38,761 bases of DNA from Kiloniellaceae bacterium (GTDB lineage: Bacteria; Pseudomonadota; Alphaproteobacteria; Kiloniellales; J153), in assembly GCA_021776095.1 (NCBI GenBank), contig JAJFGO010000062.1, positions 1-38,761 of the forward strand, in the 5' to 3' direction. Position 1 is the first letter of the stretch; each line of letters begins with the position of its first letter. A program made the position numbers and the translations under genes. This document shows positions 7,127 through 37,882 of this stretch, piece by piece. The notes beneath the pieces are model-generated. The model searched no databases and had not been told where the DNA came from. It saw nothing but the letters and a program-made list of their open reading frames with translations.

Positions 7127-8076
7127 GACCGCCGCCAATGCAAGCGCTGGCGCAGGCTGGGCAGCAGCCCGTCGCGCAGATAAATCATGCAGACCATCAT
7201 GATCAGCCCAAGTGCCGCGTGCTCGTACTCGTGAAAAACCGTTAGGAACTGCGGCAAGGCGGTGAGAACCGCGGCGCCGACGATGCCACCGAACGTCGAG
7301 CCCATGCCGCCGAGCACGACCATGGTCACCAGCTCGATCGAATGCAGGAAGCCGGCCGAGTTGGGGGTGATGAATCCCGAATAGTGCGCGCTGAGCGAGC
7401 CGGCCAGGCTGGCGAAAACGGCCGAGATGACGAAGACCGTGAGCTTGTGGCGGACCACATCGACGCCGTTGACCTGAGCCGCGATTTCGCTGTCGTGAAG
7501 GGCCCGCAAGGCCCGCCCTGTCGGGCTGTCGATTAGGTTGAGGGCAAGCCAAGTGCCGGTCAACAGGGCACCTCCGACGATCCAGTACCAGGTATGGACC
7601 CCATGCAGCTTGTAGCCGAGGATCGTCAGGCGCTGCACCGCCATGCCGTCCGGTCCCCCGGTCAGGTCCTGCTCGTTGCTCAGCAGCATGAAGATCAGCA
7701 AACCCATTCCTAAGGTGGCGACCGCCAAGTAATGGCCCTTTAAGCGCAGGATCGGCCGGCCGATCACAACAGCAAGCAAGCCGACACCAATCGCGCCAAG
7801 CACCAGGGCGGCTAAGGGCGGGATGTCGAAGCGTGCCGGCAAGACGGCTGAGGCATAGGCGCCAAGGCCGAAGAACCCGGCGTGGCCCAGGCTGATCTGC
7901 CCGGCGTAGCCAATCAAAAGATTGAGGCCGACGACGACCAGCGCGTTGATGCCGACCAGGATGACCACGTCGAAGTAGTACGCGTTCGGCAACAGGAAGG
8001 GCAGAACCGCAATGATGGCGGCCAGGACCAGAAGGCCCCCGGTGCGCGGCTGTCGCAGGGCAGCCATGGGGCTCAC
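7123..8076 (-). CDS. livM: LIV-type ABC transporter permease LivM (importer 1)
   Basis: LivM is one half of the membrane channel of the importer. The 317-residue protein is strongly hydrophobic throughout and carries the family signature LNLLIGYAGQISLGHAGFFGLGAYASA (its central part at about residues 55-75), GHYLAVATLGMG, and the EAA-like NSAGFLHSIELVTMVVLGGMGSTFGGIVGA loop that contacts the ATPases. The GTG start at 8076 overlaps the livH stop by 4 bases; an ATG three codons later is possible. It is translated as part of livKHMGF. Confidence 0.93.
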   Translation of the reverse strand: MSPMAALRQPRTGGLLVLAAIIAVLPFLLPNAYYFDVVILVGINALVVVGLNLLIGYAGQISLGHAGFFGLGAYASAVLPARFDIPPLAALVLGAIGVGLLAVVIGRPILRLKGHYLAVATLGMGLLIFMLLSNEQDLTGGPDGMAVQRLTILGYKLHGVHTWYWIVGGALLTGTWLALNLIDSPTGRALRALHDSEIAAQVNGVDVVRHKLTVFVISAVFASLAGSLSAHYSGFITPNSAGFLHSIELVTMVVLGGMGSTFGGIVGAAVLTALPQFLTVFHEYEHAALGLIMMVCMIYLRDGLLPSLRQRLHWRRS

Positions 8077-8945
8077 ACGCGCTCTCTGATCCGGGCGCCG
8101 AGCAGGCCCTGGGGCAGGAATGACAAGACTGCCAGGATAATCAGAAACGCGGCGGCGTCCTTATAGTCCGAGCTGATATACCCGGCGCCCATCGCTTCGG
8201 CGACGCCCACCAGCAGGCCGCCGACGATCGCGCCGACCGGGTTGCCCATGCCGCCGAGCATGGCCGCGGCGAAGCCCTTGAGGGCCAGCATGGTGCCGAC
8301 GTCGTAACTGGTCAGGGTGATGGGCGTGACCAGTATGCCGGCCAGGGCGCCGATCGCCGCCGACAGGGCGAAGCTGGACAGCATGACCAGATTGATATTG
8401 ATGCCCACCAGGCGGGCCGCCTGGCGGTTCTGCGCTGCGGCGAGTATCGCCTTGCCGAACAGGGTACGGCGGAAAAAGCGATGGAGCGCTATTACAATGA
8501 CGCCTGCCCCACCCAAAACCCACAGGCTTTGCGGCAAAAGCGTTGCGCCACCGATCAGAATCGGCTGTTCCCCTGAAAACGCCGGCAGGCGGTGGAGCTG
8601 TTTGTCAAACACCACCTGGGCTATGCCCCGCAGGAACACGGATGCGCCGATGGTGATGATGATTAGGGCGACGACCGAGGCGCCACGCGCTTGCTCGATC
8701 GCCAACTTGCAGAGGGCCGCGCCGACCCCCGCCGTGATGACGATGGCGAGCAGCGCGGCGATCGGCAGCGGGACGCCGGCCGCTGCCAAAAACACCGTGC
8801 ACATGCCGCCCAACATGACGAACTCGCCCTGGGCGAAATTGATCACGTCCGAGGCGCTGTAGATGATGGTAAAGCCGAGCGCGACCATCGCGTAAACGGC
8901 GCCTATGGTGATGCCCGAGAAAAGAAATTGCAGAAACTCGCTCAT
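8073..8945 (-). CDS. livH: LIV-type ABC transporter permease LivH (importer 1)
   Basis: LivH pairs with LivM in the inner membrane. The protein has 290 residues with about eight hydrophobic segments. The family motifs are SGITIGAVYAMVALGFTIIY at the N-terminus, INFAQGEFVMLGG after the first membrane segment, and LKGFAAAMLGGMGNPVGAIVGG near residue 220, the ATPase-contact loop. The ATG at 8945 lies 77 bases after the livK stop, beyond a strong hairpin, and its ribosome binding site is weak (CGGAACG). Confidence 0.93.
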   Translation of the reverse strand: MSEFLQFLFSGITIGAVYAMVALGFTIIYSASDVINFAQGEFVMLGGMCTVFLAAAGVPLPIAALLAIVITAGVGAALCKLAIEQARGASVVALIIITIGASVFLRGIAQVVFDKQLHRLPAFSGEQPILIGGATLLPQSLWVLGGAGVIVIALHRFFRRTLFGKAILAAAQNRQAARLVGININLVMLSSFALSAAIGALAGILVTPITLTSYDVGTMLALKGFAAAMLGGMGNPVGAIVGGLLVGVAEAMGAGYISSDYKDAAAFLIILAVLSFLPQGLLGARIRERV

Positions 8946-8974
8946 CGCCGTTCCGTGTTGTCAGACAGAAAGAT

Positions 8975-9015
8975 GGGTGCGAGCGGGCAGATCTGACCGA
9001 TCCGCCCGCCCACCC
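8975..9015 (-). promoter_or_regulatory. Strong intergenic hairpin between livK and livH (importer 1), likely attenuator or mRNA stabiliser
   Basis: Within the 77-base livK-livH gap, the minus-strand RNA can fold into a hairpin: GGGTG/CACCC at the base, a 1x3 internal loop, then GCGGGC/GCCCGC continuing through a G-U pair and GATC/GATC to a 5-base loop. The strand after it is pyrimidine-rich with a short U run. Such a hairpin after a binding-protein gene usually reduces read-through into the permease genes and protects the binding-protein message, giving excess LivK. Confidence 0.6.
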
Positions 9016-9022
9016 ACGAAAG

Positions 9023-10183
9023 TTACTTAACGAGCGTCCACTCGCCCTTGGCGATTTCCAGCATGCGGAACGCCGTAAGGTCGAGGCCGAGGTGGTCGCT
9101 GGCCGACATGTTGACCAAGCCGGCGGTGCCCATGAAGCCTTTGGTGTTCTCGATCTCGTCGCGGATCTTGCCAGGCTCCAGGCTGTTTGCGCGTTTGATC
9201 GCCTCGGCCAGGATGAACAAGCCATCGTAGGCATGGCCGCCGAAGGTCGAGACCGGCTCATTCCACTTGGCCTCGTAGGCCTTCTTGTAGTTGACGACGA
9301 TAGATTTCTGCGGGTCGTCGTCGGGAAGATTCTCTGCCACCAGCAAGGCCGAGGCGGGCAGGCGCACACCCTCGGAGGCGTCGCCGGCCAGTTCGATGTA
9401 CTTGCGCGACGCGACGCCATGGCTCTGATAGAGCGGCACATCGATGCTAAGTTGCTTGAAATTGGCGGTGACGATCGCCGGGCCCTGACCGAATCCCGGG
9501 TTCAAGACGGCCTGGACCCCCGCCGTGTTGCGGATATTGGTCAACTGCGGCGTCATATCGTTGTCCTTAGGCCCATAGGTTTCGTCAGCGAGGACTTCGA
9601 TGCCGTTTGCCTTGGCGGCGCTCAAGCATTGCTTCCGCATGGATTTCCCGAAACCTCCAGAGCCCGAGATTAGGCCGATTTTGGAGATTCCGCGTGCCGT
9701 CATGTCGCCGTAAATTTTCTGGCACGCCATGCGATCTGTGTGTGGGGTTTTGAAGGTGTATGGCTTGACCGGCTCGATGATGACGATGCCGCCGGCCAGG
9801 GAAATAAAGGGTATCTTCGCCTCCTCGAACAATGGGATCATGGCCATTGTCTCGCCCGTGCTCGAGCCGCCGACCATGGCGATGATGCCATCTTCTTCGA
9901 TCAGGCGAGTCGCGAAGGTTCGCGCCTTTGCGGCATCACCCGCCGAGTCGTATACGACTAACTCGATCTTTTGGCCGAGCAGGCCGCCCGCGGCGTTGAT
10001 CCGCTCGACGTACATCCTGAGCGTCTTATCCTCTGGATCGCCAAGGAACGATGCGCGACCGGTGACCGCGAGCACCGAGCCGATCTTGATATCGGCGGCG
10101 GCCTCGACCGCCCAACTCACTGTGGCCGCGATCAGCGCAGCCCCGGCGATAACGGACCTAAGTCCCATGAACGAACGTGTCAT
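9023..10183 (-). CDS. livK: LIV-type periplasmic substrate-binding protein (importer 1)
   Basis: This 386-residue protein is the periplasmic binding protein of the first LIV-type importer. A Sec signal peptide (hydrophobic core IAGAALIAATVSWAV, likely cleavage after EAAA near residue 30) precedes a type I periplasmic-binding fold starting IKIGSVLAVTGRASFLG and containing GAGG-type elements such as RINAAGGLLGQKIELVVYD (about residues 58-76), the family hallmark. The ATG at 10183 has GGGAGG 7 bases upstream. It heads livKHMGF, 149 bases downstream of the arylacetate-CoA ligase. The ligand is unknown; phenylacetate, phenylalanine or another aromatic acid is only suggested by the neighbours. Confidence 0.93.
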   Translation of the reverse strand: MTRSFMGLRSVIAGAALIAATVSWAVEAAADIKIGSVLAVTGRASFLGDPEDKTLRMYVERINAAGGLLGQKIELVVYDSAGDAAKARTFATRLIEEDGIIAMVGGSSTGETMAMIPLFEEAKIPFISLAGGIVIIEPVKPYTFKTPHTDRMACQKIYGDMTARGISKIGLISGSGGFGKSMRKQCLSAAKANGIEVLADETYGPKDNDMTPQLTNIRNTAGVQAVLNPGFGQGPAIVTANFKQLSIDVPLYQSHGVASRKYIELAGDASEGVRLPASALLVAENLPDDDPQKSIVVNYKKAYEAKWNEPVSTFGGHAYDGLFILAEAIKRANSLEPGKIRDEIENTKGFMGTAGLVNMSASDHLGLDLTAFRMLEIAKGEWTLVK

Positions 10184-10332: not shown

Positions 10333-11664
10333 TTATGCCTTGCCGCGCAGATCGCGGACCCGTACCGCCTTGCCCTGCGATCGAGGAACGTCCCCGGGAG
10401 GTAACACGATCACCCGGCAGGTTAGCCCGAGGCGTCCCTTTATGTGGCTCTGAATATCAGCACTAATCTTGTCGTGGCCGCCGGCCGCGACTTCGCCCTT
10501 GGTCTCAACTTCGATGGTCAAGGTGTCCATGGTGCCCTCGTGCTGCACCACCAACTGGTAGTGCGGCGCGATGTTGGGCCGTTCCAGCAGAACTGCCTCT
10601 ATCTGCGAGGGATAAAGGTTTACGCCGCGGATGATCAGCATGTCGTCGTTGCGCCCGGTTATGCGCATGATCCGCAGGTGGCTGCGGCCGCAGCGGCATG
10701 GCTCCGGATTGAGGCGCGTGATATCGCGGGTGCGATAGCGGATGACCGGTTGCGCCCACTTGGCCAAGGTGGTGATGACCAGCTCGCCCGCTTCGCCCAA
10801 AGGCAAGGGTTGACCCGACTCCGGGTCGATGACCTCGAACAGAAAGCAATCTTCCCAGCCGTGCAGACCGTCGCGCGCCTCGATGCATTCGCTGGCGACG
10901 CCCGGTCCGAGAATCTCAGACAGGCCATAGATGTCGACCGCCCGAATGCCCAGGCGCTCGTCCAGTTCTCTGCGCAAGGATTCGCTCCAGGGCTCGGCGC
11001 CAAAAATACCCACCGAAAGCGCGCCACCGCGGAGGTCGACGCCCTCTTGCTCGGCGACCTCCGCGATATTCAGGGCATAGGACGGGGTGGCCAAGAGAAC
11101 CCGCGCGCCGAAGTCTTTCAACAAAACGATCTGGCGCTCGGTAAAGCCGCCTGAGACCGGGGTCACGGTGCAGCCCAGGCGTTCCCCACCGTAGTGCGCG
11201 CCGAGCCCGCCGGTGAACAGGCCATAACCGTAAGCATTGTGTACGATGTCGCCTGGCCGTGCTCCGGCGCAGGCCAAGGAGCGGGCCATGAGACCGGACC
11301 AGACCTCCAGATCTTCGCGGGTGTAGCCGACCACGGTCGGCTTGCCGGTCGTGCCGGAGGAGGCGTGCAGCCGGATGACCTCTTCGCGCGGCACCGCGAA
11401 CATGCCGAAGGGATAGCCCTCGCGCAGGTCATTCTTGACCGTAAAGGGGAAGCGGACCAGATCCTCCAGGCTCTCTAACTGATCCGGCGTCACACCGGCG
11501 GCCGCGAAGCTGCGCTTGTAGTGATCGACGTTGGCATGGGCATGGTGCACGATACGTTTGAGCTTGTCGAGTTGTAGCGCGGCGATTTTGTCGCGCGACA
11601 GGACCTCAAGCTCGGGTTCGAACATGTAAGCGTCTCGTGTCATGGTGCACCCAGGCTTCCACAC
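10333..11664 (-). CDS. paaK: Phenylacetate-CoA ligase (PaaK/PadJ-type)
   Basis: An AMP-forming ligase of the PaaK family, expected to convert phenylacetate or a related arylacetate to its CoA thioester with ATP. The 443-residue protein has family length. The phosphate-binding loop is ASSGTTGKPTVVGYT (about 101-115), followed by the PaaK-specific AYGYGLFTGGLGAHYG, IYGLSEILGPGVASEC and the C-terminal GRNDDMLIIRGVNLYPSQIE segment. The GTG at 11664 lies 8 bases after GGGAGG and 14 bases after the iorB stop; an ATG at 11643 is the alternative but lacks a clear binding site. It is the last gene of the pad/ior operon, which argues for the anaerobic PadJ role instead of the aerobic Paa epoxide pathway: no paaABCDE is present. 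Confidence 0.9.
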   Translation of the reverse strand: MWKPGCTMTRDAYMFEPELEVLSRDKIAALQLDKLKRIVHHAHANVDHYKRSFAAAGVTPDQLESLEDLVRFPFTVKNDLREGYPFGMFAVPREEVIRLHASSGTTGKPTVVGYTREDLEVWSGLMARSLACAGARPGDIVHNAYGYGLFTGGLGAHYGGERLGCTVTPVSGGFTERQIVLLKDFGARVLLATPSYALNIAEVAEQEGVDLRGGALSVGIFGAEPWSESLRRELDERLGIRAVDIYGLSEILGPGVASECIEARDGLHGWEDCFLFEVIDPESGQPLPLGEAGELVITTLAKWAQPVIRYRTRDITRLNPEPCRCGRSHLRIMRITGRNDDMLIIRGVNLYPSQIEAVLLERPNIAPHYQLVVQHEGTMDTLTIEVETKGEVAAGGHDKISADIQSHIKGRLGLTCRVIVLPPGDVPRSQGKAVRVRDLRGKA

Positions 11665-11678: not shown

Positions 11679-13127
11679 TTACGCCTCCGCCAGGCGATCG
11701 CCGTCCGGATCGTGCCGCGCCCGCTGGAGGAGCATGTCGACGTCACGCCGCAGATCGATGGGGTCGTCGCGCAGGCGCTCCGGCACCTTGGCGGTGAATG
11801 CCTCCAACTGCTCCAGTCCGCGGGCGCGCACCCGGCCATAGCCGCGCGCGAGCACGGCGAGTTCGGCCACGCGCTGGGCCAATTCCGGATCCTGCGCCGC
11901 ACACTGGCACACTGCCGCCAACCAGGCTTCGATCGCCGCCTCTTCGCGGGCATAGCGATAGGTACGCCGGCGCCAAGGCTTGAGCGAGGCCATGAGCTTG
12001 AGGGCCGCATAGCCCCAGGCGGAGGTGGTCGGAATACGCAGGCGCAGCCCGCCGACCGGGCCGGCCGTCGCGCCGGCCATGAGGCGGCGCCCAAGTGCCG
12101 GCGGCAACAGACTGGCCAGTTCCTCGCGCCCCGGCTTTAAGAAGTCCTTCACATGGAGCAGGCCGTCATGGCCCAGGGACAACTCCGCGCGAATTCGCGC
12201 CAAGCGGCCTGGGCGAGTCTTGAGCTGGGCGACGCGGATGACGTCCTCGAAACTCATCCAAGCGGCCAGACGCCGGGCGGTTTCGCCGACGAGCACCTTG
12301 CCGAGGCTGTGATCGGCCTCGTTTAGCGGCCCAAGACGACGCAGATAGGCGGCCGCGTAGTCGTGGTCCTGATAGTCGACCAGGCGGGCCAGGGCGTGAC
12401 CAAGGAGTGGGCGCAAGGCCGCAGGGTATGAGGCAAGGCCGTCATCGAAGCCGTCCGGTGCCGGCGCCAACTGGTCGGTCGCCTCCTCGGCCGGCATGCT
12501 GTGGGCGGCTTGCCCGTTGGCGTGCAGGCCAGCCTTGAAGTTGGCCAAGCTGGCGGCCACCGCCACGCCCTTTGTCTCGATTGCACCCCGGCACACCGCT
12601 TCATCCAAGGGCAGAATGCCGCTGCCGACGATCGCGCCCAACATGATCGCGTTGCCCGGTACACCCGGCCGCCCGGTCAGGGCGTCGACGTCGAGGCGGA
12701 CGACCTTGGCGGCCGCGCGTTCCAAGGGCGCGATCAAAGCTGGGAGGCCCAGGGCGCCATTGCCGGCGACGACCTTTTCAGCGGTGCTGAAAATCCGGTT
12801 GAGTGTGGTAATCACCGTTGTGCGCTCTGTGATTAAGCCTCGTTCCAGGGCGCGTCCGGCTTCGAGCGGCTCCATCGCCACCATCAGGTCGAGCCCGTCC
12901 TCATCGGGGAACAGGCTGAAAACCGGGCTGGGTGCGCCGTTCTTTTCGGGCAGGATCTCGAGGTAGTAGGTCGTCGCGCCGGTTCGCTGCGCCACGCCGG
13001 GTATCGAGGTGACCTGCGCCGGATAGCCGGCCTGATGTGCCGCCTCGGCCAGCCACTCGGCGAGCAAGCCGCCGCCCTGGCCGCCTAGGGCGGCGATCTG
13101 GACGCAGATCGGCTCGGCCCTGGTCAT
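11679..13127 (-). CDS. iorB: Indolepyruvate (2-oxoacid) oxidoreductase, beta subunit
   Basis: The small subunit of the TPP-dependent 2-oxoacid oxidoreductase, oxidising arylpyruvates (indolepyruvate, phenylpyruvate) to arylacetyl-CoA. The N-terminal 200 residues form the gamma-type domain of the pyruvate:ferredoxin oxidoreductase family (IAALGGQGGGLLAEWLAEAA, then SIPGVAQRTGATTYYLEI). The remaining 280 or so residues are the long C-terminal extension (DUF6537-like) seen in bacterial IorB; it makes the protein 482 residues, more than twice an archaeal IorB. The ATG at 13127 overlaps the iorA stop (ATGA). The open frame extends further upstream inside iorA, but that is a shadow. Confidence 0.87.
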   Translation of the reverse strand: MTRAEPICVQIAALGGQGGGLLAEWLAEAAHQAGYPAQVTSIPGVAQRTGATTYYLEILPEKNGAPSPVFSLFPDEDGLDLMVAMEPLEAGRALERGLITERTTVITTLNRIFSTAEKVVAGNGALGLPALIAPLERAAAKVVRLDVDALTGRPGVPGNAIMLGAIVGSGILPLDEAVCRGAIETKGVAVAASLANFKAGLHANGQAAHSMPAEEATDQLAPAPDGFDDGLASYPAALRPLLGHALARLVDYQDHDYAAAYLRRLGPLNEADHSLGKVLVGETARRLAAWMSFEDVIRVAQLKTRPGRLARIRAELSLGHDGLLHVKDFLKPGREELASLLPPALGRRLMAGATAGPVGGLRLRIPTTSAWGYAALKLMASLKPWRRRTYRYAREEAAIEAWLAAVCQCAAQDPELAQRVAELAVLARGYGRVRARGLEQLEAFTAKVPERLRDDPIDLRRDVDMLLQRARHDPDGDRLAEA

Positions 13128-15268
13128 GATGCGCCCATCCAGACCAGTAACCGGTCGTTCAATCGTGCCGCTAGGCGCCGGACCGGGCCCGGGTTGACCA
13201 GTCCTTCGGCCTTGTAGAAGGACGGACAAAGTTGCGCGGCCTGGGCGACCTCACCACACAGATCGCAGGCCGCGCAGGAATTGTCGACATGCGCTGTCGG
13301 ACCGTCTTTCAAGGGATCCTGCGTCGGCTTTAGGGTCAGCGACGGGCACCCGTTCAGGCGAATACAGGAATGATCGCCGGTGCAAACCTCCGCGTCGACG
13401 CCGTAGCGCTCCCGGCGTTCGGGCGCAGCGGCCTTCGGCGCGGCCAGGCGCTCCCGCCGTTTCTTGGCCAACATGCATTCGTTACCGGAAATGACCACAC
13501 GCAAGTTCGGCCCGCGCTGGTCCAGCGCCGCACGCAGCCCCGCCATGGTCTCCGTCAGGTCGTAGGAATCGACGCGGCGGATCCAGCTCACACCGATGCC
13601 GCGCAGGGTCTTCTCTATAGAAACCTGGCTCGGCTGACCGATTGGCGAGGCGCCCGTCGAGGGCACGTGTTGTTGCCCCGTTGCCGAAGCGTAACCGTTT
13701 TCCAGCACGATCAGGACCGCGTCCATGCCCTGCCACTGCGCGTTGACCGCGCCGCTAGTCAGACCATTGTGCCAGAAGGCGCCATCGCCCATGACGGCGA
13801 TCGTCGGCTGGTTCAGGGCGGCCGCGATCGGGCCGCCGCTGGCAAGGCTCAGACCGTAACCGACGACTGTGTTGCCGACATTCAGCGGCGCCAGGGCGGC
13901 GAAGGTTGAGCAGCCGATGTCGAGGGAGATGTGCAAGTGCCCGCGTTCGCGCATTATCAATTTTAGGGCTGTGAAGATTGGCCGTTCCGGACAACCCGTG
14001 CAGAAGCTCGGCGGCCGGGGCGGCAATGGTTGCGCCGCGGCGCGGGCCCGGGCCGCTTGCACATTTCCGGCGATGGCTGCGTTGCGCGCCAGGGCTGGCG
14101 CAACGATGTCCTTTGGCGCCGCGGCCGCAAGATAGGCGGCCAGGCCGGCGCGCACGACCCCGGCTATGTATTCGCCCGTGGTTGGGATTGTGTCCTTGCC
14201 GTACACGCGGCAGGACAGGCCCGCTTCCTGGGCGAAAGCGCGGACTTGGTTCTCGATCAAGGCCGGATGGCCCTCCTCGACCACCAGCACGCTGTCCTTG
14301 CCGGCAAGAAAATCCGTGATTTCCTCGGGCACTAAGGGATGGATGACGTTGAGCACCAGCAGCGGCACCTCACAGGCGCCAAAGCCATCCGCCAGGCCGA
14401 GCCGCGCCAGCGCGCGCATGACTACGCCGTATGTGCCGCCCTGCAGGATGACCCCGAAGCGGTGACCGGCACCAGCCATATGCTCGTTCATGCCGCGCTC
14501 TCGGATAAAGCGGCGCACCGCCGGCAGGCGTTGCTCGATCTTGGCCTGCTCGTCCGTAAAGCTGGTCGGCGGCAAGGGAATGCTTCGCCTGTCCGGCCCC
14601 GCCAACAGGGGTGCGTTACGGGTCTTCGTCGCCGACGGCCGGTTCTCCTTGCAGACAAAACTGCCGGTCATGTGACAGGCGCGGATGCGCAACGACATGA
14701 AAACCGGCAGGTTTCCGGCCTCGGACATTTCGAAAGCTTGCTCGGTCAGATCGACGATCTTCTGCATGTCATAGCGCGGGTCGATCAGCGGTATGGACGA
14801 CTTCATCGCCATTGAATGCGTGCGTTCCTGGATCACGCTGGCGCCTTCGCCGTAGTCCTCGCCGACTAGGACCAAGGCACCGCCGACCACGCCGCAGGAC
14901 GCGACGTTGGACAAGGCATCGGACGCCACGTTAGTGCCGACGATAGATTTCCATGTCACCGCGCCACGCAAAGGATAGCTGATCGAGGTCGCGAGCAGTG
15001 CCGCCGCCCCAGCCTCCGAGGCGGACTGCTCAAAATAGATGTCATAGGGCTTCAGTACTGTATCCCGCGCATCCGCGAGCACGTCCATCAGATGCGATAC
15101 CGGCGCCCCCGGATAGCCACCGACATAGGACACACCGGATTGCAACAGGGCCTTGGTTACGGCCAGGATCGTTTCGCCGTGAAAGACCTCGCCGTTGCCT
15201 AGCAGCAACTTCTCGGCATCGTGCACGAATGAGCGCTCGCGTGAGATCGCTTTGGCGCCAACGCTCAT
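13124..15268 (-). CDS. iorA: Indolepyruvate (2-oxoacid) oxidoreductase, alpha subunit
   Basis: The 714-residue large subunit carries the TPP site and Fe-S clusters. In order: the PorA-like pyrimidine-binding domain (GGYPGAPVSHLMDVL near residue 54), the TPP pyrophosphate domain with GDGAFWHNGLTSGAVNAQWQ and LENGYASATGQQ (GDG...N motif), a cysteine pair in FCTGCPERP, and a C-terminal ferredoxin domain with Cys at about 629, 635, 641, 665, 668, 671 and 681. The first cluster segment CTGDHSCIRLNGCP is the form typical for bacterial IorA. The ATG overlaps the upstream stop by 4 bases. It would produce phenylacetyl-CoA from phenylpyruvate; whether it can also take phenylglyoxylate is open. Confidence 0.92.
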   Translation of the reverse strand: MSVGAKAISRERSFVHDAEKLLLGNGEVFHGETILAVTKALLQSGVSYVGGYPGAPVSHLMDVLADARDTVLKPYDIYFEQSASEAGAAALLATSISYPLRGAVTWKSIVGTNVASDALSNVASCGVVGGALVLVGEDYGEGASVIQERTHSMAMKSSIPLIDPRYDMQKIVDLTEQAFEMSEAGNLPVFMSLRIRACHMTGSFVCKENRPSATKTRNAPLLAGPDRRSIPLPPTSFTDEQAKIEQRLPAVRRFIRERGMNEHMAGAGHRFGVILQGGTYGVVMRALARLGLADGFGACEVPLLVLNVIHPLVPEEITDFLAGKDSVLVVEEGHPALIENQVRAFAQEAGLSCRVYGKDTIPTTGEYIAGVVRAGLAAYLAAAAPKDIVAPALARNAAIAGNVQAARARAAAQPLPPRPPSFCTGCPERPIFTALKLIMRERGHLHISLDIGCSTFAALAPLNVGNTVVGYGLSLASGGPIAAALNQPTIAVMGDGAFWHNGLTSGAVNAQWQGMDAVLIVLENGYASATGQQHVPSTGASPIGQPSQVSIEKTLRGIGVSWIRRVDSYDLTETMAGLRAALDQRGPNLRVVISGNECMLAKKRRERLAAPKAAAPERRERYGVDAEVCTGDHSCIRLNGCPSLTLKPTQDPLKDGPTAHVDNSCAACDLCGEVAQAAQLCPSFYKAEGLVNPGPVRRLAARLNDRLLVWMGAS

Positions 15269-16872
15269 GGGACGACACTCCAGCCCGGCTTGGCGCCTAG
15301 TCCGCCACCGCCGACGCCTCGCTCCGGCGAATGGGCGATGGCGAATCCCTGGTTGTAAGATGCCCGGATGACCACGACGAATTTCAAGGCCCAGCCAGCC
15401 ATGGCTGCCAACAGCCCAGCGGTGGCAGCGGCCACCGTTGCGAAATCAGGCACCGCAAGCGCGCCAAGCAGCAGCAGTGCGGGCACGATATGGCCGACTC
15501 CCAGGAAACCAGGGTGCAGGCGTGCGATCTCGGCGAGCGTCCCGCTCGGCGCCGACCCGGACAAAGCCTGCCGATAGCGCCACCAGGCCCAAGCCCGCAA
15601 GCCGAGTCCTGCGAGTAGGAGGACGGCGGAGAGTGTCGTTGCCGTGGGCGCTGGCGTGGTCAGGATCGCGAGTACCACCAGGAACAGGCCCAAGCCTTCG
15701 CTCAATCCGGTGGCTACGATCAAAGGTACGATTTCGGCAACGCGCCAGGCCGGTATGCCGGCCAGTGCACGCAAAATGCGCGCCTGACAATACAGAAACC
15801 CCAAGCCGGCCAAGGCGGCGAGAAGCATCAGGGGCGCCGAGTCGAACCATGCGCCGGCAAGCGCCAAGGGGAAGAGGACCAGGCCGATGATGGATTCGCG
15901 GCTCATCCATGAGGTTTGCGGGTGGAACAACACATTGAGCGGTGCGCGGAACGGACGGCCGGTCTCGAACCAGACGCAGGTGAGACCGGCGCCGACAAGA
16001 GCGATCCCGAGCAACCCGAACGGCATGAGCGGCAATTCGAAGCCAACGGCGATGATTGTTGCCAGTAACAGCCCGGTCCCGGACCCGCCGCCGATGAAGT
16101 TGCCGGCGGCGCGCCAGTCCCAATGCCGCTGCTGCCAGGGTGCGACGCCACCAATGGCGCCGGTGCCGGTCGAGACGGCGTTGTGCGACGGACTGCTCGG
16201 TGTCGGTCCCCGCCCGGCCTCGGCCGCCGCCGCCCAGATGTAGTGAATGTTTGGACTGGTGCCGAGCTCTTCGTGCATGCCGAAGGTCTCGTTGTCGCGG
16301 ATCATCTGCGAGACATTGCTGTCTGGATTATCCAGGTCGCCAAAGTGCAGGGCATCGGCGATGCAGGAATTGACGCACGCGGGCGTTGCCGCCGGATCGA
16401 CGCCTGGGGTCAAGCCCTGCGCCAGGCCGTCGTCGATGCGCTCGATACAGAAGGTGCACTTCTGCGCGACACCGACTCGGGCCGGATCGCTGCGTTGCGC
16501 CTCGTTACGCGTCTTGCCCTCGCCGCCATAGGCATATCCGGGATCATCGACCTTGAAGCGTGCCTGATAGGGACAGGCCAGGGCGCAGCTTGCGCAGCCG
16601 ATGCACAGATCGTAGTCCATGGTGACCAGCCCGTCCTCGCGCTTCCGGGTCGCCGTCGAAGGACAGACCGGCACGCAGGGTGGATCGTCGCAGTGCATGC
16701 AGCCGACAGGCACGAAAACTCGGCTCACGTCCGGGAAAGCCCCCAGCTCGACGTCCAGGACACTGCGCCATTGCACGCCCTTCGACGTGGCGTTGCTGTG
16801 CTTGCAGGCGGCGGTGCAGGTTTGGCAGCCAACACATCGGCGTAGATCCGCGATCATGGCCCAGCGGGTCAT
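15265..16872 (-). CDS. Fused Fe-S and membrane-anchor subunit of a Pad-type molybdoenzyme (PadC-PadD-like)
   Basis: A 535-residue fusion. Residues 1-180 are a four-cluster ferredoxin of the DmsB/PadC type with 16 cysteines in four groups (13/16/19/23, 58/61/66/70, 90/93/96/100, 139/142/166/170). After a linker, residues 240-530 form about eight membrane segments of the DmsC/NrfD type. In phenylacetyl-CoA:acceptor oxidoreductase these functions are normally two proteins, PadC (electron transfer) and PadD (quinone-side anchor). The ATG overlaps the padB-like stop (ATGA) and its own stop overlaps the iorA start. Electrons from the molybdenum subunit would pass through the clusters to the quinone pool. 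Other quinone-linked molybdoenzymes share this architecture, so the Pad assignment rests on the neighbouring genes. Confidence 0.8.
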   Translation of the reverse strand: MTRWAMIADLRRCVGCQTCTAACKHSNATSKGVQWRSVLDVELGAFPDVSRVFVPVGCMHCDDPPCVPVCPSTATRKREDGLVTMDYDLCIGCASCALACPYQARFKVDDPGYAYGGEGKTRNEAQRSDPARVGVAQKCTFCIERIDDGLAQGLTPGVDPAATPACVNSCIADALHFGDLDNPDSNVSQMIRDNETFGMHEELGTSPNIHYIWAAAAEAGRGPTPSSPSHNAVSTGTGAIGGVAPWQQRHWDWRAAGNFIGGGSGTGLLLATIIAVGFELPLMPFGLLGIALVGAGLTCVWFETGRPFRAPLNVLFHPQTSWMSRESIIGLVLFPLALAGAWFDSAPLMLLAALAGLGFLYCQARILRALAGIPAWRVAEIVPLIVATGLSEGLGLFLVVLAILTTPAPTATTLSAVLLLAGLGLRAWAWWRYRQALSGSAPSGTLAEIARLHPGFLGVGHIVPALLLLGALAVPDFATVAAATAGLLAAMAGWALKFVVVIRASYNQGFAIAHSPERGVGGGGLGAKPGWSVVP

Positions 16873-19607
16873 GCCCGCCTCTCGATCAGCTTGACCGAGG
16901 CCTTGACCAGATCGGCGCTCGACCCGGTCGCGTCGGTCAGGTCGAGCAGCATCGGCATCAGCTTGTTCATGGACGGTACTTGGAAGGTCTTGGCCAGCGG
17001 CGTCACCCAGTGATCGAACTGGCCGATCATGACCAAGGTATCGGGCCGCACGCCTTGGCGCAGGACGACGTGGCCGCGGGTGGCGCTGAGCGGCGAGGCG
17101 ATTTCGACCAAATCACCCTCGTGGATGCCGAGCTCGGCGGCCCGGCCACCGTTCATGATCACGCCGCTGTGGCCGGCCACGTTGCCGGCGACCTCCTTGA
17201 TCATCTGAATATCGACGTTGCCGCCCCAGGCGTACTGCATGGATCGGGAGGTGACGAGCCAGAATGGATAGTCGGCGATGTCGACGTCGAAGTTGTCCGT
17301 TAGCGCCTTTTCCCACAGGCTCGGCAGATCGTGCCAGCGCGGCAGCGCCGCGTACTCGCTCAACTGCGTGTCCCACCAGGTGATGCCCTTCTCGTGCAGT
17401 CGGTTGGCTAATTCCTGACCGATCCGGAACAGGCGCTCCTGATAGGGCATCTCGAAGCGTAAGCTCTGGTCGATGATTTCCGGATAGAGGTACCAGTCGA
17501 GGCGCGGGAACGGCGCGACCCGGTAGCCGTGTTCACGGTAGTACTCCAAGCCTTGGTTGTCGGCGCCACCGCTCAGTTCCGCGCTGGCAGCGCGACAGGC
17601 GGCATCCCAGATTTCCTCGACGCTGTGTTCCTTGGCCGGGTCGAGGGCGACATCGTATGCCGCCGTTTTCAAGCTGACGCCGGCGGCGCCCTTGTTGATG
17701 GCGCCGTTGTAGGCTTCCAGCAGCCCGGTCCGCTTGGCCAATTGGGTGGCAATCCAGGTGAAGTCGCGCGCTCCGCTGGCCGCTTCGACTGCCGGTTGGC
17801 GCAAGGCGAAACCCTGGTAGTCCCAGTACTGTTCGACGTACTTGGTGCCGCCGATACGGATCAATTGCAGGCTTTCCAGGTCTGTGCACTCGGGCAACAG
17901 CACATCGGCTGCGTGGTTGGTCTCGTCTGGCGTGTAGGCGAAGCACACGGTGAAGGGGAAACGGTCGATCGCCGCACCCACGGCCTCGGTGTCCCAAAAC
18001 GAAATTGCCGGGTTGGTGCGGTAAACGAACCAGACGTCCGGGGGCGTCGGCGTCGGCAAGTGTTCGTTGCCCTCGGCCTGCATCATCCAGGCCATGTGAG
18101 TTGGGCCGAGCGCCTGGCTCCATGGCGAGTTGCCGACCAAGGGTATCAGTGTGGAATGGGCGCTGCGCGTGGTGGGACGCGACCGCCAATTTTCTTTGTC
18201 GGTCGGATTCATCGGGTAGTCCATGAACCCGTCGCGCATGGAGCGCACACTGGCTTGGCGCGAGCTGGCCGGGCGATTGATCCGAACCGTCGTGCCCAGC
18301 AATCCGCCGGGCACCTCCAGGGCGCCGACCAGACAGGCCAGCATGGTGCGCGCCCAACAGCAATCGTAACCGCCCCAGCCATTGTTGACCGTTTTACCCA
18401 GGGTGATCGCGACCGGCCGGAAGGGCAGGGTGCGGCCTTCGATTTCGATGGTTTCGCCGACCCGGGCGTGGTCCAGGTACTCGCCGGCGATCCGGCCGAT
18501 GGTTTCGGCGGGGACATCGCAAACCTGCGCGGCCCAAGCCGGCGTCGTGTCCTTGAAATGCTCGACCATGGTGGCGAAAGCGGAGCGGCACGGGATGTCC
18601 GTGTGTTGCCAGATTTTGCCGTCCGGGCCTTCCTCGACGCCGTCGGCGCGGAACGCACCGTCCAATGCCGGATCGGCCCCCGCGGTATCGAAAGCCACGG
18701 CGCGATCCGACACGCTGTCCCAGATCAGCGGCTTGCGGCTCTCAGCATCGCGCAGGTAAAAGCCGTGGGTGCCGAGCAGATACGGTGACGATGTGTGCTG
18801 TTTCAGGAATTGCAGATCCAGCGCCTCGCGCGGTCTCTGGTGCAGCGCCACGTGGATCATGGCCATCATGAAGGCGGCATCGGTCTTGGGCTTGATCGGC
18901 ACCCATTCGGCCGAGCAGGCGCCGGTGATCGATAGGTGCGGTTCGACCTGAACTCGCTTCATGCCGCGCACGCGCGCGTCGGCGTGACGCTTGACCCCGC
19001 AAACGCCGCCCGAGGCTTCGACGTTGCTGCCGAAAGAGATGTTGTATTCGCACAGCGGCGTGTCCGGCGCGACCGTGAAAGCGCGATGCCAGAACTCGCC
19101 GTAAAGGTGTTCGGAGTGATAGCACTTGACGCCCTGGCCGCTGCCGAAGCTGAAGTCGACCGGGCCCCAGGCGCTTAGGAAAGCCGGGAAGGTGCCCATG
19201 TAGGCGGTCGGTGTGCCACCACCGCCGAAGCTTGCGGCGACCCGCGGGAACCCAGAGCCGTCGGTCAGTCCTTGGTCCCGCGCGGCTTGCAGTTTCGCAG
19301 CAATTATGTCGAGCGCCTCATCCCAACTGATCGCAACAAAACCGGGATCCTCATGGCGGCCCTTGCGCGGGTTGGTCCGCTTCATGGGGTTGGAAATGCG
19401 GTGCGGGTTATAGGTCTTCTGGACTAGGCCGAACGCCTTGACGCAGACCCGCCCGGCGGCCGGATGGACCGATGCCGCGGCGAAATTCGGCTCGACCTCT
19501 GTGGCGACGCCGTCCTCCACCCGGACAGTCAGGAAGTCCGGACCCGCGACGCACTGATAACAGTAGGTCGGGACCTTGCGGTCGCGTTGTGCCGTGCCTC
19601 TGCTCAT
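16869..19607 (-). CDS. padB: Molybdopterin oxidoreductase, probable phenylacetyl-CoA:acceptor oxidoreductase catalytic subunit (PadB-like)
   Basis: The 912-residue protein is a DMSO-reductase-family catalytic subunit. It has an N-terminal Fe-S segment (C16, C19, C55), the RISNPMKRTNPRKGR and ISWDEALDIIAAKL segments of the family, the cofactor-binding NISFGSNVEASGG, and a C-terminal molybdopterin dinucleotide domain (LVTSRSMQYAWGGNVD ... LGIHEGDLVEIASPL). There is no Tat or Sec signal, so the active site is cytoplasmic, as expected for a CoA-ester substrate and as known for PadB of Thauera/Aromatoleum, which oxidises phenylacetyl-CoA to phenylglyoxylate. The operon with arylacetate-CoA ligase and a 2-oxoacid oxidoreductase supports this over other molybdoenzymes. 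The third cluster Cys seems absent (D24 lies nearby). Confidence 0.75.
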   Translation of the reverse strand: MSRGTAQRDRKVPTYCYQCVAGPDFLTVRVEDGVATEVEPNFAAASVHPAAGRVCVKAFGLVQKTYNPHRISNPMKRTNPRKGRHEDPGFVAISWDEALDIIAAKLQAARDQGLTDGSGFPRVAASFGGGGTPTAYMGTFPAFLSAWGPVDFSFGSGQGVKCYHSEHLYGEFWHRAFTVAPDTPLCEYNISFGSNVEASGGVCGVKRHADARVRGMKRVQVEPHLSITGACSAEWVPIKPKTDAAFMMAMIHVALHQRPREALDLQFLKQHTSSPYLLGTHGFYLRDAESRKPLIWDSVSDRAVAFDTAGADPALDGAFRADGVEEGPDGKIWQHTDIPCRSAFATMVEHFKDTTPAWAAQVCDVPAETIGRIAGEYLDHARVGETIEIEGRTLPFRPVAITLGKTVNNGWGGYDCCWARTMLACLVGALEVPGGLLGTTVRINRPASSRQASVRSMRDGFMDYPMNPTDKENWRSRPTTRSAHSTLIPLVGNSPWSQALGPTHMAWMMQAEGNEHLPTPTPPDVWFVYRTNPAISFWDTEAVGAAIDRFPFTVCFAYTPDETNHAADVLLPECTDLESLQLIRIGGTKYVEQYWDYQGFALRQPAVEAASGARDFTWIATQLAKRTGLLEAYNGAINKGAAGVSLKTAAYDVALDPAKEHSVEEIWDAACRAASAELSGGADNQGLEYYREHGYRVAPFPRLDWYLYPEIIDQSLRFEMPYQERLFRIGQELANRLHEKGITWWDTQLSEYAALPRWHDLPSLWEKALTDNFDVDIADYPFWLVTSRSMQYAWGGNVDIQMIKEVAGNVAGHSGVIMNGGRAAELGIHEGDLVEIASPLSATRGHVVLRQGVRPDTLVMIGQFDHWVTPLAKTFQVPSMNKLMPMLLDLTDATGSSADLVKASVKLIERRA

Positions 19608-19630: not shown

Positions 19631-20035
19631 CTAAGACCTTAGCTTTTCCGCCTTCACTTCCAATCGTTTCTGCAACTGAGCGGTTCCAACGACAAAGCGT
19701 TTGTGGATGCCTTTGGCGACCGGCTCGATATCGTCCTTCGCACTGACCTCGAACGTGACCTGACGTCCATCGACGGCGACAACGCGCGCCGTGATTTCGA
19801 CATTCATGCCCAACAAGGTAGCACCGGTGTGATCGATCTCGACACGAGTGCCGACCGAATCCTCGCTAGGATCCACGTGTTCAAGCAGCAGGTCGCGGCA
19901 GGTGTGCTCAATGTCGCGGATCAGTTCCGGGGTCGCATAGACACGTAAGGCTTCACCCATGAAATCAATCGTGCGGGGCTTGTCGACGACGAGCGGCCGG
20001 TTGGTCACCAGCCCAGGCGTAAGGGTGTCCTTCAT
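19631..20035 (-). CDS. FlK-type hot-dog thioesterase
   Basis: A 134-residue hot-dog-fold thioesterase at the head of the pad/ior operon. The residues T35, E43 and H69 have exactly the spacing (8 and 26) of the Thr/Glu/His catalytic set known from fluoroacetyl-CoA thioesterase FlK, and SVGTRVEIDHTGATLLGM is the family core. The ATG at 20035 has GGGAGGA 8 bases upstream, which rules out the longer in-frame reading from 20131. It lies 23 bases before padB. In this setting it probably hydrolyses aryl-CoA or dead-end CoA esters to recover CoA; the real substrate is not shown. Confidence 0.85.
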   Translation of the reverse strand: MKDTLTPGLVTNRPLVVDKPRTIDFMGEALRVYATPELIRDIEHTCRDLLLEHVDPSEDSVGTRVEIDHTGATLLGMNVEITARVVAVDGRQVTFEVSAKDDIEPVAKGIHKRFVVGTAQLQKRLEVKAEKLRS

Positions 20036-20119
20036 CGTGCGTCCTCCCAGGCGAACCTCTTGTTTTGACGTCGAACGTGTCTTGTCGACCTTGAAAATGA
20101 CCGGGCTCGTCGATTCGGC

Positions 20120-20151
20120 ACTGTAAAACAAGTAAACACGTACCTCAATAC
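20120..20151 (-). promoter_or_regulatory. Candidate promoter of the thioesterase-pad-ior operon with overlapping operator motif
   Basis: On the minus strand, TTGAGG (20148-20143) and TACAGT (20125-20120) are 17 bases apart, about 80 bases before the thioesterase start. The -35 element sits inside CGTACCTCAATAC (20139-20151, plus strand), which matches 12 of 13 bases of CGTACCTAAATAC at 34282-34294 before the two-domain GNAT gene. The rest of the 20036-20239 gap is AT-rich near 20150-20160 (CCAAATTATTGG dyad) and holds a 6-bp hairpin at 20177-20195. Confidence 0.4.
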
Positions 20152-21893: not shown

Positions 21894-23543
21894 ATGATTG
21901 AGTTTTCCACTCAGCCGGAGAGCTACCGCCATTGGCGCCTGCGAACCGAGGGATCGGTCGCCTACCTGAGCCTGAACGTCCAGGAGGATGCGGGGCTGTT
22001 TCCGGGCTACAAGTTGAAATTGAACTCCTACGACCTGGGGGTCGATATCGAGCTCAACGACGTGGTCCAGCGCCTCCGCTTCGAACACCCTGAGGTCCGG
22101 GCGGTAGTGCTCACCTCGGATAGGGAGGGCGTGTTTTGTGCCGGGGCCAATATTCAGATGCTTGGGCAGTCGAGCCATGCTCACAAGGTGAATTTCTGCA
22201 AGTTCACCAACGAGACCCGCAACGCCATTGAAGACGCTAGCCAGAATTCAGGCCAGACATATATTTGCGCCATAAACGGCACGGCGGCCGGCGGCGGCTA
22301 TGAGATGGCGCTTGCGGCCGAGCACATCATTCTGGTCGACGATGGCGCCAGTTCGGTTTCTTTGCCGGAAGTGCCGCTTCTGGCCGTTCTGCCTGGGACC
22401 GGCGGCCTGACCCGTGTGGTCGACAAGCGTCATGTCCGGCGCGATCATGCGGACGTTTTCTGCACCCTGACCGAAGGAATTAAAGGCAAGCGCGCCGTCG
22501 ATTGGCATTTGGTCGACGAAGTCGTGCCGCGCTCGCGCCTGGATCAGGTCGTGCGGGATCGCGCCGAGGCCCTGGTGGCGACATCGGATCGCCCGGGCGA
22601 CGCCAAAGGCGTCGATCTGCCGCCGCTCCGTCGCGACCTTGCGGAAGACAGCATGGCCTACGACAATTTGAGCGTGGCGATCGATCGACCGGGGCGGGTG
22701 GCGCGTATCACAGTCAATGCCCCGAACGCCGACCAACCGCGCGATCTTGCCGGGATCCATGCTGCCGGCGCTGCTTTCTGGCCACTGGCTCTGGCGCGGG
22801 ACCTGGATGACGCGATTCTGCATTTGCGTTTCAACGAGCCGGACATTGGCACCTGGGTTCTGATGACCGGCGGCGACGCGGCGCGGGTCATGGCGGCCGA
22901 CGCATCCCTGCAAGAGCACGCGGGCGATTGGTTGGTGCGCGAGATCACGTTGTACCTCAAGCGCGTGTTCAAGCGTCTGGACGTTACCTCCCGCAGCCTG
23001 GTCGCGGTCATCGAACCGGGCAGCTGTTTCGCGGGGTTCCTGGTCGAATTGATCCTGGCCGCCGACCGTAGCTACATGTTGGACGGTTCGATCGAGGGCG
23101 ACAACCGCCCGCCTGCTTGCCTGCGTCTCTCGGCCATGAGCTTCGGGCCCTTGCCGATGTGCAACGGCCTAACGCGTTTGGAGACCCGATTTCTAGACGA
23201 CGCAGCACGGGTGACTGCGATTCGTGGCAAGATCGACCATGACCTTGATGCGGCCGCGGCGGATGACTTGGGCTTGGTTACGTTCACGCCGGATGATCTC
23301 GATTGGGAAGACGAGGTTCGCCTGGCCCTGGAGGAACGTGCCAGCTTCTCGCCCGATTCCTTGACCGGCATGGAAGCCAGCCTGCGCTTCGCCGGGCCGG
23401 AAACCCTGGAGACAAAAATCTTCGGCCGGCTCAGTGCTTGGCAAAACTGGATTTTCCAGCGGTCGAATGCCGTCGGCGAACAAGGTGCGCTGAAGCGTTT
23501 TGGCAGCGGCATTCAACCCAAGTTCGATAACGGACGAGTCTAA
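21894..23543 (+). CDS. boxC: 2,3-epoxybenzoyl-CoA dihydrolase (benzoyl-CoA-dihydrodiol lyase)
   Basis: BoxC opens the ring of 2,3-epoxybenzoyl-CoA with two waters, giving 3,4-dehydroadipyl-CoA semialdehyde and formate, in the aerobic box pathway. The 549-residue protein is a tandem of two crotonase-like domains and has family length. The N-terminus YRHWRLRTEGSVAYLSLNVQ with GYKLKLNSYDLGVDIELND is diagnostic; the first crotonase site shows GVFCAGANIQMLG and INGTAAGGGYEMALA, the oxyanion-hole segments. The ATG at 21894 fits the family start although no clear Shine-Dalgarno sequence precedes it. It is the first gene of the boxC-boxB-ligase-CoA-transferase unit. Confidence 0.95.
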   Translation: MIEFSTQPESYRHWRLRTEGSVAYLSLNVQEDAGLFPGYKLKLNSYDLGVDIELNDVVQRLRFEHPEVRAVVLTSDREGVFCAGANIQMLGQSSHAHKVNFCKFTNETRNAIEDASQNSGQTYICAINGTAAGGGYEMALAAEHIILVDDGASSVSLPEVPLLAVLPGTGGLTRVVDKRHVRRDHADVFCTLTEGIKGKRAVDWHLVDEVVPRSRLDQVVRDRAEALVATSDRPGDAKGVDLPPLRRDLAEDSMAYDNLSVAIDRPGRVARITVNAPNADQPRDLAGIHAAGAAFWPLALARDLDDAILHLRFNEPDIGTWVLMTGGDAARVMAADASLQEHAGDWLVREITLYLKRVFKRLDVTSRSLVAVIEPGSCFAGFLVELILAADRSYMLDGSIEGDNRPPACLRLSAMSFGPLPMCNGLTRLETRFLDDAARVTAIRGKIDHDLDAAAADDLGLVTFTPDDLDWEDEVRLALEERASFSPDSLTGMEASLRFAGPETLETKIFGRLSAWQNWIFQRSNAVGEQGALKRFGSGIQPKFDNGRV

Positions 23544-23577
23544 TCCTCTACAATCGCAAACAGAAGTAAGTCGCCAC

Positions 23578-24993
23578 ATGAGCATCGACCACTTAAGCAA
23601 GATTCCGAACAACGTTCAGCTAGCCGACGATCGACGACTGCAACGAGCGCTGGAGAAATGGCAACCAGGATATGAGAGCTGGTGGCGCGATCTTGGCCCG
23701 GAGGCAAGCCAGAACATGGATGTCTATCTGCGCACCGCGATCAGCGTCGATCCGGGCGGTTGGGCGAACTACGGCTATGTGCGTATGCCGGAATATCGTT
23801 GGGGCATATTCCTGGCGCCGCAGGACGAGGGGCGCCTGGTTAACTTCGGCATGCACAAGGGCGACCTTGCCTGGCAAGAGGTGCCTGGCGAGTATCGCAC
23901 CGATCTGCGCCGCTTAATCGTGGTCCAGGGCGATACCGAGCCCGCATCGGTCGAGCAGCAACGTCATCTGGGCGCGACCTGTCCGTCGCTCTACGATCTC
24001 CGCAACTTGTTCCAGGTCAATGTTGAGGAGGGACGGCACCTTTGGGCCATGGTCTATCTGCTGCACGCGCACTTTGGCCGTGACGGCCGTGAGGAGGCGG
24101 AAGGCATGCTGGAGCGCCACTCCGGGGATTCCGACAAGCCGCGGATCCTGGGCGCCTTCAACGAGAGAACGCCGGACTGGCTGTCGTTCTACATGTTCAC
24201 GTTCTTCACCGATCGCGATGGCAAATATCAACTGGCCTCGTTGGCGGAGTCGGCCTTCGATCCGTTATCGCGGACCTGCCGCTTCATGCTGACCGAAGAA
24301 GCCCATCACATGTTTGTCGGCGAGACCGGGGTCGGCCGGATCGTACAGCGCGCCTGCGAGATCATGCGCGAGCACAAGACCGACGATGTGCGGAAATGGG
24401 GCGGCATCGATCTGCCTACGCTCCAGAAATACGTCAATTTCCATTTCAGTGTGTCCCTGGATCTGTTCGGTCAGGAGTTGTCGACCAACGCGGGGAACTA
24501 TTTCAGCATGGGCCTCAAGGGCCGCTTCCACGAAACCAAAATCAAGGACGATCACCTCTTGACCGACGCGGCCTACAAGGTGCCGGAGGTCAAAGGCGAC
24601 CAAATCGCCATGACCGATGCCAGCGCCTTGCTCGCGGTCAACGAGCGCTTGCGCGACGACTACGTGGTCGACTGTCAGCGCGGCGTCGATAAGTGGAACC
24701 GGGTGATCGAAAATGCCGGAATCGACTTCAAGCTGACGTTGCCCAACCGGGCCTTCCACCGCCGGATCGGTGTCTTCAGCGAGGTTGAGGTCACGCCGGA
24801 CGGCCGGATCGTGACCTGGGCCGATTGGGACCGCGATCACTCCCGTTGGCTACCGACCGATGAGGATCGGGTTTATGTCGGTTCGCTGATGCAGGCGGTT
24901 ACCGAACCGGGGAAGATTGCCAACTGGATCGCGCCGCCGGCCAAGGGGATCAATGGCCAGCCGCTAGAGTTCGAGTACGTACGTTTTAACTAA
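23578..24993 (+). CDS. boxB: Benzoyl-CoA 2,3-epoxidase, oxygenase subunit
   Basis: BoxB is the diiron epoxidase of the box pathway; it forms 2,3-epoxybenzoyl-CoA with O2 and electrons from BoxA. The 471-residue protein has family length. The two E-x-x-H diiron pairs are visible in NVEEGRHLWAMVYLLHAHFG (E151/H154) and LTEEAHHMFVGETG (E240/H243 or E241/H244), with further conserved TPDWLSFYMFTFFTDRDG between them. The ATG at 23578 follows GAAGTAAG and comes 34 bases after boxC; the open frame extending back into boxC is a shadow. The reductase gene boxA is not adjacent and not in this window. Confidence 0.95.
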   Translation: MSIDHLSKIPNNVQLADDRRLQRALEKWQPGYESWWRDLGPEASQNMDVYLRTAISVDPGGWANYGYVRMPEYRWGIFLAPQDEGRLVNFGMHKGDLAWQEVPGEYRTDLRRLIVVQGDTEPASVEQQRHLGATCPSLYDLRNLFQVNVEEGRHLWAMVYLLHAHFGRDGREEAEGMLERHSGDSDKPRILGAFNERTPDWLSFYMFTFFTDRDGKYQLASLAESAFDPLSRTCRFMLTEEAHHMFVGETGVGRIVQRACEIMREHKTDDVRKWGGIDLPTLQKYVNFHFSVSLDLFGQELSTNAGNYFSMGLKGRFHETKIKDDHLLTDAAYKVPEVKGDQIAMTDASALLAVNERLRDDYVVDCQRGVDKWNRVIENAGIDFKLTLPNRAFHRRIGVFSEVEVTPDGRIVTWADWDRDHSRWLPTDEDRVYVGSLMQAVTEPGKIANWIAPPAKGINGQPLEFEYVRFN

Positions 24994-25128
24994 CGGTAAA
25001 TTGTGCGATTTGGGCGACCGGTCGGACTTGCCGCAATACCGGTCATGGGCAAGACTCGGGACGGGAAGGGACAAGAAGCCGGGCTACGAAACCGGCAGGG
25101 CACTATCTGGGAGCCGGGAGGAAGGTAC

Positions 25129-35680: not shown

Positions 35681-35698
35681 GCCGCGTTCCTCCGTATC

Positions 35699-36541: not shown

Positions 36542-36553
36542 GATCTCTCTCCT

Positions 36554-37867: not shown

Positions 37868-37882
37868 TGCCCGCTTCCCAAT

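Follow-up and report, generated by a model that had tools for sequence, protein, structure and literature searches.

The pad operon in the window analysed here, a stretch of 38,761 nucleotides that constitutes one whole contig of a Kiloniellaceae genome (G000; 4.98 Mb, 122 contigs, 95.41% complete), carries the genes iorA and iorB in the place that padEFGHI holds in Thauera and Aromatoleum. Judged from sequence, the IorAB proteins of this slot probably constitute a ferredoxin-dependent phenylglyoxylate oxidoreductase forming benzoyl-CoA. In the proposed pathway the ligase would convert phenylacetate to phenylacetyl-CoA, PadBCD would oxidize the alpha-carbon of phenylacetyl-CoA to yield phenylglyoxylyl-CoA, and hydrolysis by PadBCD itself or by a FlK-like thioesterase, which could be regarded as the candidate phenylglyoxylyl-CoA hydrolase, would release phenylglyoxylate. 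The TPP-dependent IorAB would then catalyze the oxidative decarboxylation of phenylglyoxylate with CoA to benzoyl-CoA, CO2, and reduced ferredoxin. It would stand in for PadEFGHI, an NAD-dependent enzyme of five subunits, and could supply low-potential electrons to the class I benzoyl-CoA reductase whose genes lie close by. The whole operon would thus lead from phenylacetate to benzoyl-CoA.

The genes of the operon and its surroundings are listed in Table 1. According to the original prediction iorA and iorB lie between padCD and the ligase gene with 4-base overlaps, which is correct for their placement and for the padCD/iorA and iorA/iorB junctions (a further 4-base overlap joins padB and padCD), but iorB and the ligase gene do not overlap and are separated by a 14-base gap when the ligase GTG start at 11664 is used. 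The start of iorB was best placed at 13127, where an ATGA overlap with the iorA stop codon is formed and where the gene caller also set it; the longest frame begins at 13229. The Pad naming of the window genes is sound, because over residues 1-908 PadB shares 69% identity with its counterpart from Thauera aminoaromatica; using tblastn the two parts of padCD matched the separate padC (70%) and padD (47%) of Thauera, and the ligase is 53% identical to the Thauera ligase in the equivalent position. The operon is flanked by genes of both the oxygen-dependent (box) and the reductive (bcr) benzoyl-CoA routes, of which bcrB is truncated by the contig end.

Table 1. Genes of the pad operon and of neighboring aromatic degradation routes in the window.
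Feature	Positions	Strand	Remarks
livKHMGF-type ABC importer	5650..10183	-	after the ligase gene; Pfam; close to padB in many of the best 80 loci
PaaK/PadJ-type phenylacetate-CoA ligase	10333..11664	-	best model TIGR02155, 588.5 bits, under the cut-off of 646.3
iorB, gamma-type domain and all-helical DUF6537 domain, slot clade	11679..13127	-	PF01558, PF20169
iorA, TPP- and iron-sulfur subunit of 2-oxoacid:ferredoxin oxidoreductase, slot clade	13124..15268	-	PF02775
padCD, iron-sulfur and membrane-anchor subunits	15265..16872	-	single 535-aa frame; 4Fe-4S domains
padB, molybdopterin subunit of phenylacetyl-CoA:acceptor oxidoreductase	16869..19607	-	
FlK-like (fluoroacetyl-CoA thioesterase family) gene	19631..20131	-	first in the operon; PF22636 FlK, 109.8 bits; start 20035 or 20131
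boxC, boxB, benzoate-CoA ligase family (oxygen-dependent benzoyl-CoA route)	21894..26706	+	divergent; TIGR03222, TIGR03225, TIGR02262 over cut-offs
ferredoxin, class I benzoyl-CoA reductase bcrD, bcrA, bcrB (reductive benzoyl-CoA route)	35435..38752	-	NF033683, TIGR02261, TIGR02259, TIGR02260 over cut-offs

One genome per species (84,980 species) was scanned with a PadB profile, which confirmed at least 550 relatives, and the best 80 of these make up the named loci, whose neighboring genes were mapped with tblastn and with a gene caller based on codon usage. Most of the named padB genomes are MAGs, and the gene caller yielded little or nothing on L043, L044, L092, L110, L330, and L337. Among these best 80 of at least 550 loci, tblastn placed padE after padCD in 11, including those of T. 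aminoaromatica, T. phenylacetica, and Aromatoleum diolicum, and iorA directly after padCD in six (L093, L097, L101, L110, L121, L122); 15 more have less than 5 kb after padB and neither padE nor iorA there. The position of iorA after padCD is not a chance arrangement, since it recurs in 6 of the 80 named loci. Whole iorAB pairs are present in L093 (Rhodobacterales), in L110 (a Chloroflexota MAG, genome G812), and in L122 (Rhodocyclales, genome G814), the last with an IorA of the general clade described below, and the contig ends within iorB in L097 (Sneathiellales, genome G424) and within iorA in L101 (Hyphomicrobiales) and L121 (a Chloroflexota MAG). L093 is the only one of the six with the full window order FlK-padB-padCD-iorA-iorB-ligase.

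Downstream of iorB and on its strand, L110 encodes a PaaX regulator and frames whose best models are below cut-off: 6-oxocyclohexenoyl-CoA hydratase (oah; 199.4 vs 464.45 bits) and benzoyl-CoA reductase C (259.1 vs 421.15 bits) and B (209.7 vs 486.55 bits). In L093 the ligase gene is followed by a 4-hydroxybenzoyl-CoA reductase gamma-like frame (195.5 bits vs a cut-off of 257.8) that is cut by the contig end, and homogentisate-type genes (a weak hmgA match, FAA hydrolase and GST domains) lie upstream. The surroundings of both loci are consistent with a benzoyl-CoA-type product.

Several other features recurred in the maps. Of the 75 loci with room for it (from the best 80 of at least 550), 52 have a FlK-like gene immediately upstream of padB, and using tblastn it was not seen there in L105 and L119 (Thauera) or L157 (Aromatoleum). 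A GNAT acetyltransferase, encoded either as a double-domain protein or by two genes, recurs close to bcr genes (window 34300-35373; L034, L035, L041, L042, L044), and a PnbB-like (4-hydroxylaminobenzoate lyase) gene is found close to pad and aromatic genes in the window (33216-33689) and in L093 (7327-7794). In L034 (8614-9900), L036, L037, and L038, padD is followed by the gene of a conserved ~370-430-aa protein, beside a hemerythrin-like gene; the one scanned had no Pfam match at E<=1e-5.

The window IorAB belongs to the 2-oxoacid:ferredoxin oxidoreductase superfamily and is of the DUF6537 type (NF006179). IorB exceeds the NF006179 cut-off (452.5 vs 348 bits) with its POR (PF01558) and DUF6537 (PF20169) domains, and the best model for IorA is TIGR03336 (IOR_alpha), whose equivalog cut-off of 650.9 bits is not reached at 313 bits; the canonical IorA proteins of Thauera and Aromatoleum also fall slightly under it (634 bits). 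Within the TPP-binding domain (PF02775) of IorA the residues G494, D495, and N524 are kept in at least 90% of the alignment, as are the C-terminal cysteines C629, C635, C641, C665, C668, and C671, which are predicted from sequence to bind 4Fe-4S clusters. The AF2 model of IorA is of modest quality (mean pLDDT 74.6, with most of the iron-sulfur part 619-691 under 50) and matched the OFOR fold of 9bt4_A (Z 33.1, 346 aligned, rmsd 3.9). The single IorA sequence had no match to solved structures at E<=0.001, and OFOR chains were among the matches of the alignment profile. Residues 4-209 of the IorB model matched the gamma subunit 3on3_B (Z 19.4, 169 aligned, rmsd 2.4). The DUF6537 part of IorB (residues ~220-479) is predicted with good confidence to be almost wholly helical; the structure matches listed for it were designed helical proteins at Z<=9.8, and no fold relation is claimed.

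The IorA tree comprised 58 proteins, 13 rows (eight duplicates, four fragments, and a fused enzyme) having been dropped beforehand, and placed IorA of the window, L093, L097, L101, L110, and L121 in one clade (support 98/95), separate from 40 other DUF6537-partnered rows and from L122. A clade of exactly the same six persisted when 30 extra IorA rows from other padB genomes were added (FastTree 0.94). The slot IorB clade (100/100) also took in G811 and G813, whose loci are split, by the second part of each locus. Beyond the window, slot-clade loci come from five genomes of three Alphaproteobacteria orders and Chloroflexota. Eighteen IorA positions distinguish the slot clade, where the 4-6 slot rows with coverage all carry one residue that general-clade rows seldom have; position 53 in a Y-P-x-x-P motif is P in 6/6 slot-clade rows and Q in 41/41 and 30/30 other rows. 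With P53 this motif aligns to the Y-P-I-T-P of 2-oxoacid oxidoreductases, and it presumably lines the substrate pocket.

The PadB proteins of the slot loci are scattered, their common ancestor spanning 33 leaves that include padEFGHI, POR-linked, and unlinked loci (FastTree; some inner forks are weak, 0.38 to 0.72), and a group of six leaves (0.97) holds the window and L093 but none of the other slot loci. Since slot IorA and IorB each form one clade while the PadBs scatter, iorA and iorB seem to travel together as a cassette that keeps the pad slot. The comparison of padB-linked and unlinked IorA proposed in the original prediction separated slot-linked from unlinked proteins, with the exception of L122, a slot locus whose IorA belongs to the general clade and groups with its counterparts in L169 and in the PadG-containing genomes G804 and G806. 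The notion that every iorA beside padB is one thing was dropped in view of the general-clade IorA of L122 and L169 and the canonical IorA of L057 and L100.

That no padEFGHI is visible, as had been stated for the window, was borne out for the whole genome in searches that covered PadG and PadI: the best matches, 268.6 bits for PadG and 197 bits for PadI against cut-offs of 700, both fall on a POR cluster on contig C75. As a positive control, PadG was over the cut-off in all 11 genomes with padE after padCD and in G814, where it lies on another contig than L122. PadG thus exceeded the cut-off in 0/6 slot-clade genomes vs 12/12 other genomes of the same search; in G424 and G811 no PadG-model match was found at E<=1e-30, and G000 and G810 carry an additional POR of putative function. 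A class-wide PadI search (0/385) scored at most four candidates per genome, was run without a positive control, and is not used as proof.

A PorABC clade, termed POR380, is linked to padB in L092, L107, L108, L116, L139, L141, and L162, and lies directly upstream of FlK-padB in L108 and L116. In a POR alpha tree of 61 rows the POR380 clade (20 rows, 100/99) holds all seven padB-linked PORs and stands apart from both PadG and the C75 type. POR380 may represent a third phenylglyoxylate oxidoreductase, and it was not found in the six slot-clade genomes.

For a set of 68 padB genomes the occurrence of these enzymes was compared. The set includes 50 further padB genomes (11 of 61 were left out), among which PadG was over the cut-off in 5, DUF6537-type IorA was present in 40, and any IorA match in 43, three of them canonical only. 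All 14 of the 68 genomes without DUF6537-type IorA have PadG or POR380, and 31 of the 54 with it have neither. This complementarity had a chance probability of 5e-5 when unstratified and was reached in 6 of 20,000 shuffles stratified by taxon label, a device that handles shared descent roughly. G830 was counted as having PadG by a fragment at a contig end, and P is 6e-4 if this fragment is counted as absent; P is 0.0076 if any PadG-model match at E<=1e-30 counts instead, 0.11 with PadG alone, and 0.01 with POR380 alone, a class defined post hoc after its padB linkage had been noticed. The generic C75-type POR, used as a control, gave no pattern (10/14 vs 10.5 expected), and a variant in which 390-aa sister PORs were added to the C75 type gave 8/14 vs 9.9 expected (P 0.18).

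Two readings had been offered originally, in which IorAB either makes phenylacetyl-CoA from phenylpyruvate upstream of Pad or has taken over the phenylglyoxylate step. As far as sequence comparison reaches, the takeover appears better, if only partly, supported: the slot, the slot-only clade, the absence of PadG and POR380, and the complementarity argue for it, and the general-clade iorAB of L169 and L122 and the additional POR of G000 and G810 argue against it. We regard as rather unlikely the main rival, in which IorAB converts phenylpyruvate derived from phenylalanine to phenylacetyl-CoA as a second entry to the Pad route while another enzyme handles phenylglyoxylate. This very reaction is assigned to IorAB of Aromatoleum aromaticum EbN1 (PMC9765128), and the predicted IorA3B3 of Desulfococcus multivorans was formed with phenylpyruvate and at a lower level with phenylacetate (PMC5109826). 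Membership in a pad cluster does not by itself make phenylglyoxylate the substrate of an iorAB pair, because L169 has general-clade iorAB after a complete padBCDEFGHI, and the general-clade IorA of L122 occurs in a genome having PadG elsewhere. Also compatible with a phenylpyruvate substrate are the L110 locus, within whose 22.7 kb no CoA ligase was seen, and its genome G812, in which no second IOR of the canonical or fused types was found (TIGR03336). The link between padB and IorA at class level (17/18 padB genomes vs 42/367 others, the 42 including one that has just the 32% type) would follow from this role as well; these searches scored at most two candidates per genome, and G415, with padB and no IorA listed, may be a miss. 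However, a phenylpyruvate role does not predict the complementarity with PadG and POR380, no aminotransferase family was found among the scanned operon genes, and the only IorA found with the window query in Thauera and Aromatoleum is the canonical one, 32-33% identical. Furthermore, the slot pair need not serve arylpyruvates in the slot-clade genomes because five of these six show other IORs, canonical or fused (TIGR03336), namely G000 (C122), G424, G810, G811, and, in pieces, G813.

It is very unlikely that the unlinked POR cluster on C75 oxidizes phenylglyoxylate and that IorAB does something else. The cluster consists of PorC-PorA-PorB and a FAD/NAD(P)-binding/PorD subunit, and hence has PadEFGHI-like subunit kinds besides its 268.6 bits to PadG; another POR clade is padB-linked elsewhere, and the four genes Rfer_2184-87 of Rhodoferax ferrireducens are assigned to the phenylglyoxylate step in an earlier genome paper (PMC2755013). 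Yet the pyruvate synthase models PorA, PorB, and PorC give the proteins of the C75 cluster higher scores, the cluster lies among 2-aminoethylphosphonate genes in the window genome, and a C75-type match is missing from two genomes with slot-clade iorAB, G424 and G811. The assignment is disfavored because C75-type PORs form their own clade, with none among the seven padB-linked PORs, coexist with true PadG in G804, G806, G807, G809, G831, and G865, and showed the null pattern of the control. We would give hardly any credence to a conversion of phenylglyoxylate by benzoylformate decarboxylase and benzaldehyde dehydrogenase, or by a CoA-transferase, for which the pair at 26745-28428 would be a candidate. 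This pair, the part of the reading that the comparison covered, adjoins the box genes, and a role of AtoAD has been suggested for Desulfobacula toluolica, as told in PMC5109826, but it is oriented divergently to the operon, and tblastn mapping of the padB loci (best 80 of at least 550) showed no relative of it.

If phenylglyoxylate is indeed the substrate of the slot pair, this role would be new for the IorAB enzyme family and the annotation 'indolepyruvate oxidoreductase' would be misleading for the slot clade. A literature search, with subscription papers mostly outside its reach, found no assignment of IorAB to phenylglyoxylate. Class I benzoyl-CoA reductase needs low-potential electrons, and the use of ferredoxin instead of NAD would therefore alter the energetics of phenylacetate and phenylalanine degradation without oxygen. 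More tentatively, DUF6537-type IorAB at large, beyond the slot clade, might be a widespread ferredoxin-dependent phenylglyoxylate oxidoreductase of padB bacteria; the last Pad step would then be modular, with at least three types (PadEFGHI, POR380, IorAB), the ferredoxin version being coupled to benzoyl-CoA reduction. Two DUF6537-type iorA copies occur close together in L174/L187 (G805), L176/L186 (G815), and L325 (G844), which hints at two substrates.

Compared with known systems, slot IorAB shares with POR380 the superfamily and the linkage of an oxidoreductase to padB, but POR380, itself of putative function, has PorA, PorB, and PorC subunits of a different family. General DUF6537-type IorAB (NF006179) has an equal subunit plan and 49-54% IorA identity, but its rows lie outside the slot clade, have Q53 throughout, and occupy the pad slot only in L122 among the best 80 of at least 550 loci. 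Of 20 general-clade iorAB loci retrieved, 9 have TRAP importers beside the pair (protein clusters, four members scanned; 2 of the 20 without usable gene calls), which hints at imported 2-oxo acids. With canonical IorAB (TIGR03336) the slot pair has in common the domain order of IorA, the TPP motif, and the C-terminal cysteines; it differs in an identity of 26-29% over the alignment, in a window-type IorA that is ~75-110 residues longer, in the DUF6537 domain of IorB, and in a Y-P-G-A-P where the canonical enzyme has Y-P-G-T-P. The phenylglyoxylate:NAD+ oxidoreductase PadEFGHI of Thauera, Aromatoleum, and Azoarcus evansii is likewise encoded between padD and padJ/ligase, belongs to the same TPP-dependent 2-oxoacid oxidoreductase superfamily, and yields the product proposed for slot IorAB, benzoyl-CoA; unlike this five-subunit enzyme, slot IorAB has two subunits, carries DUF6537 on IorB, and is encoded in an operon without an NAD/FAD subunit gene.
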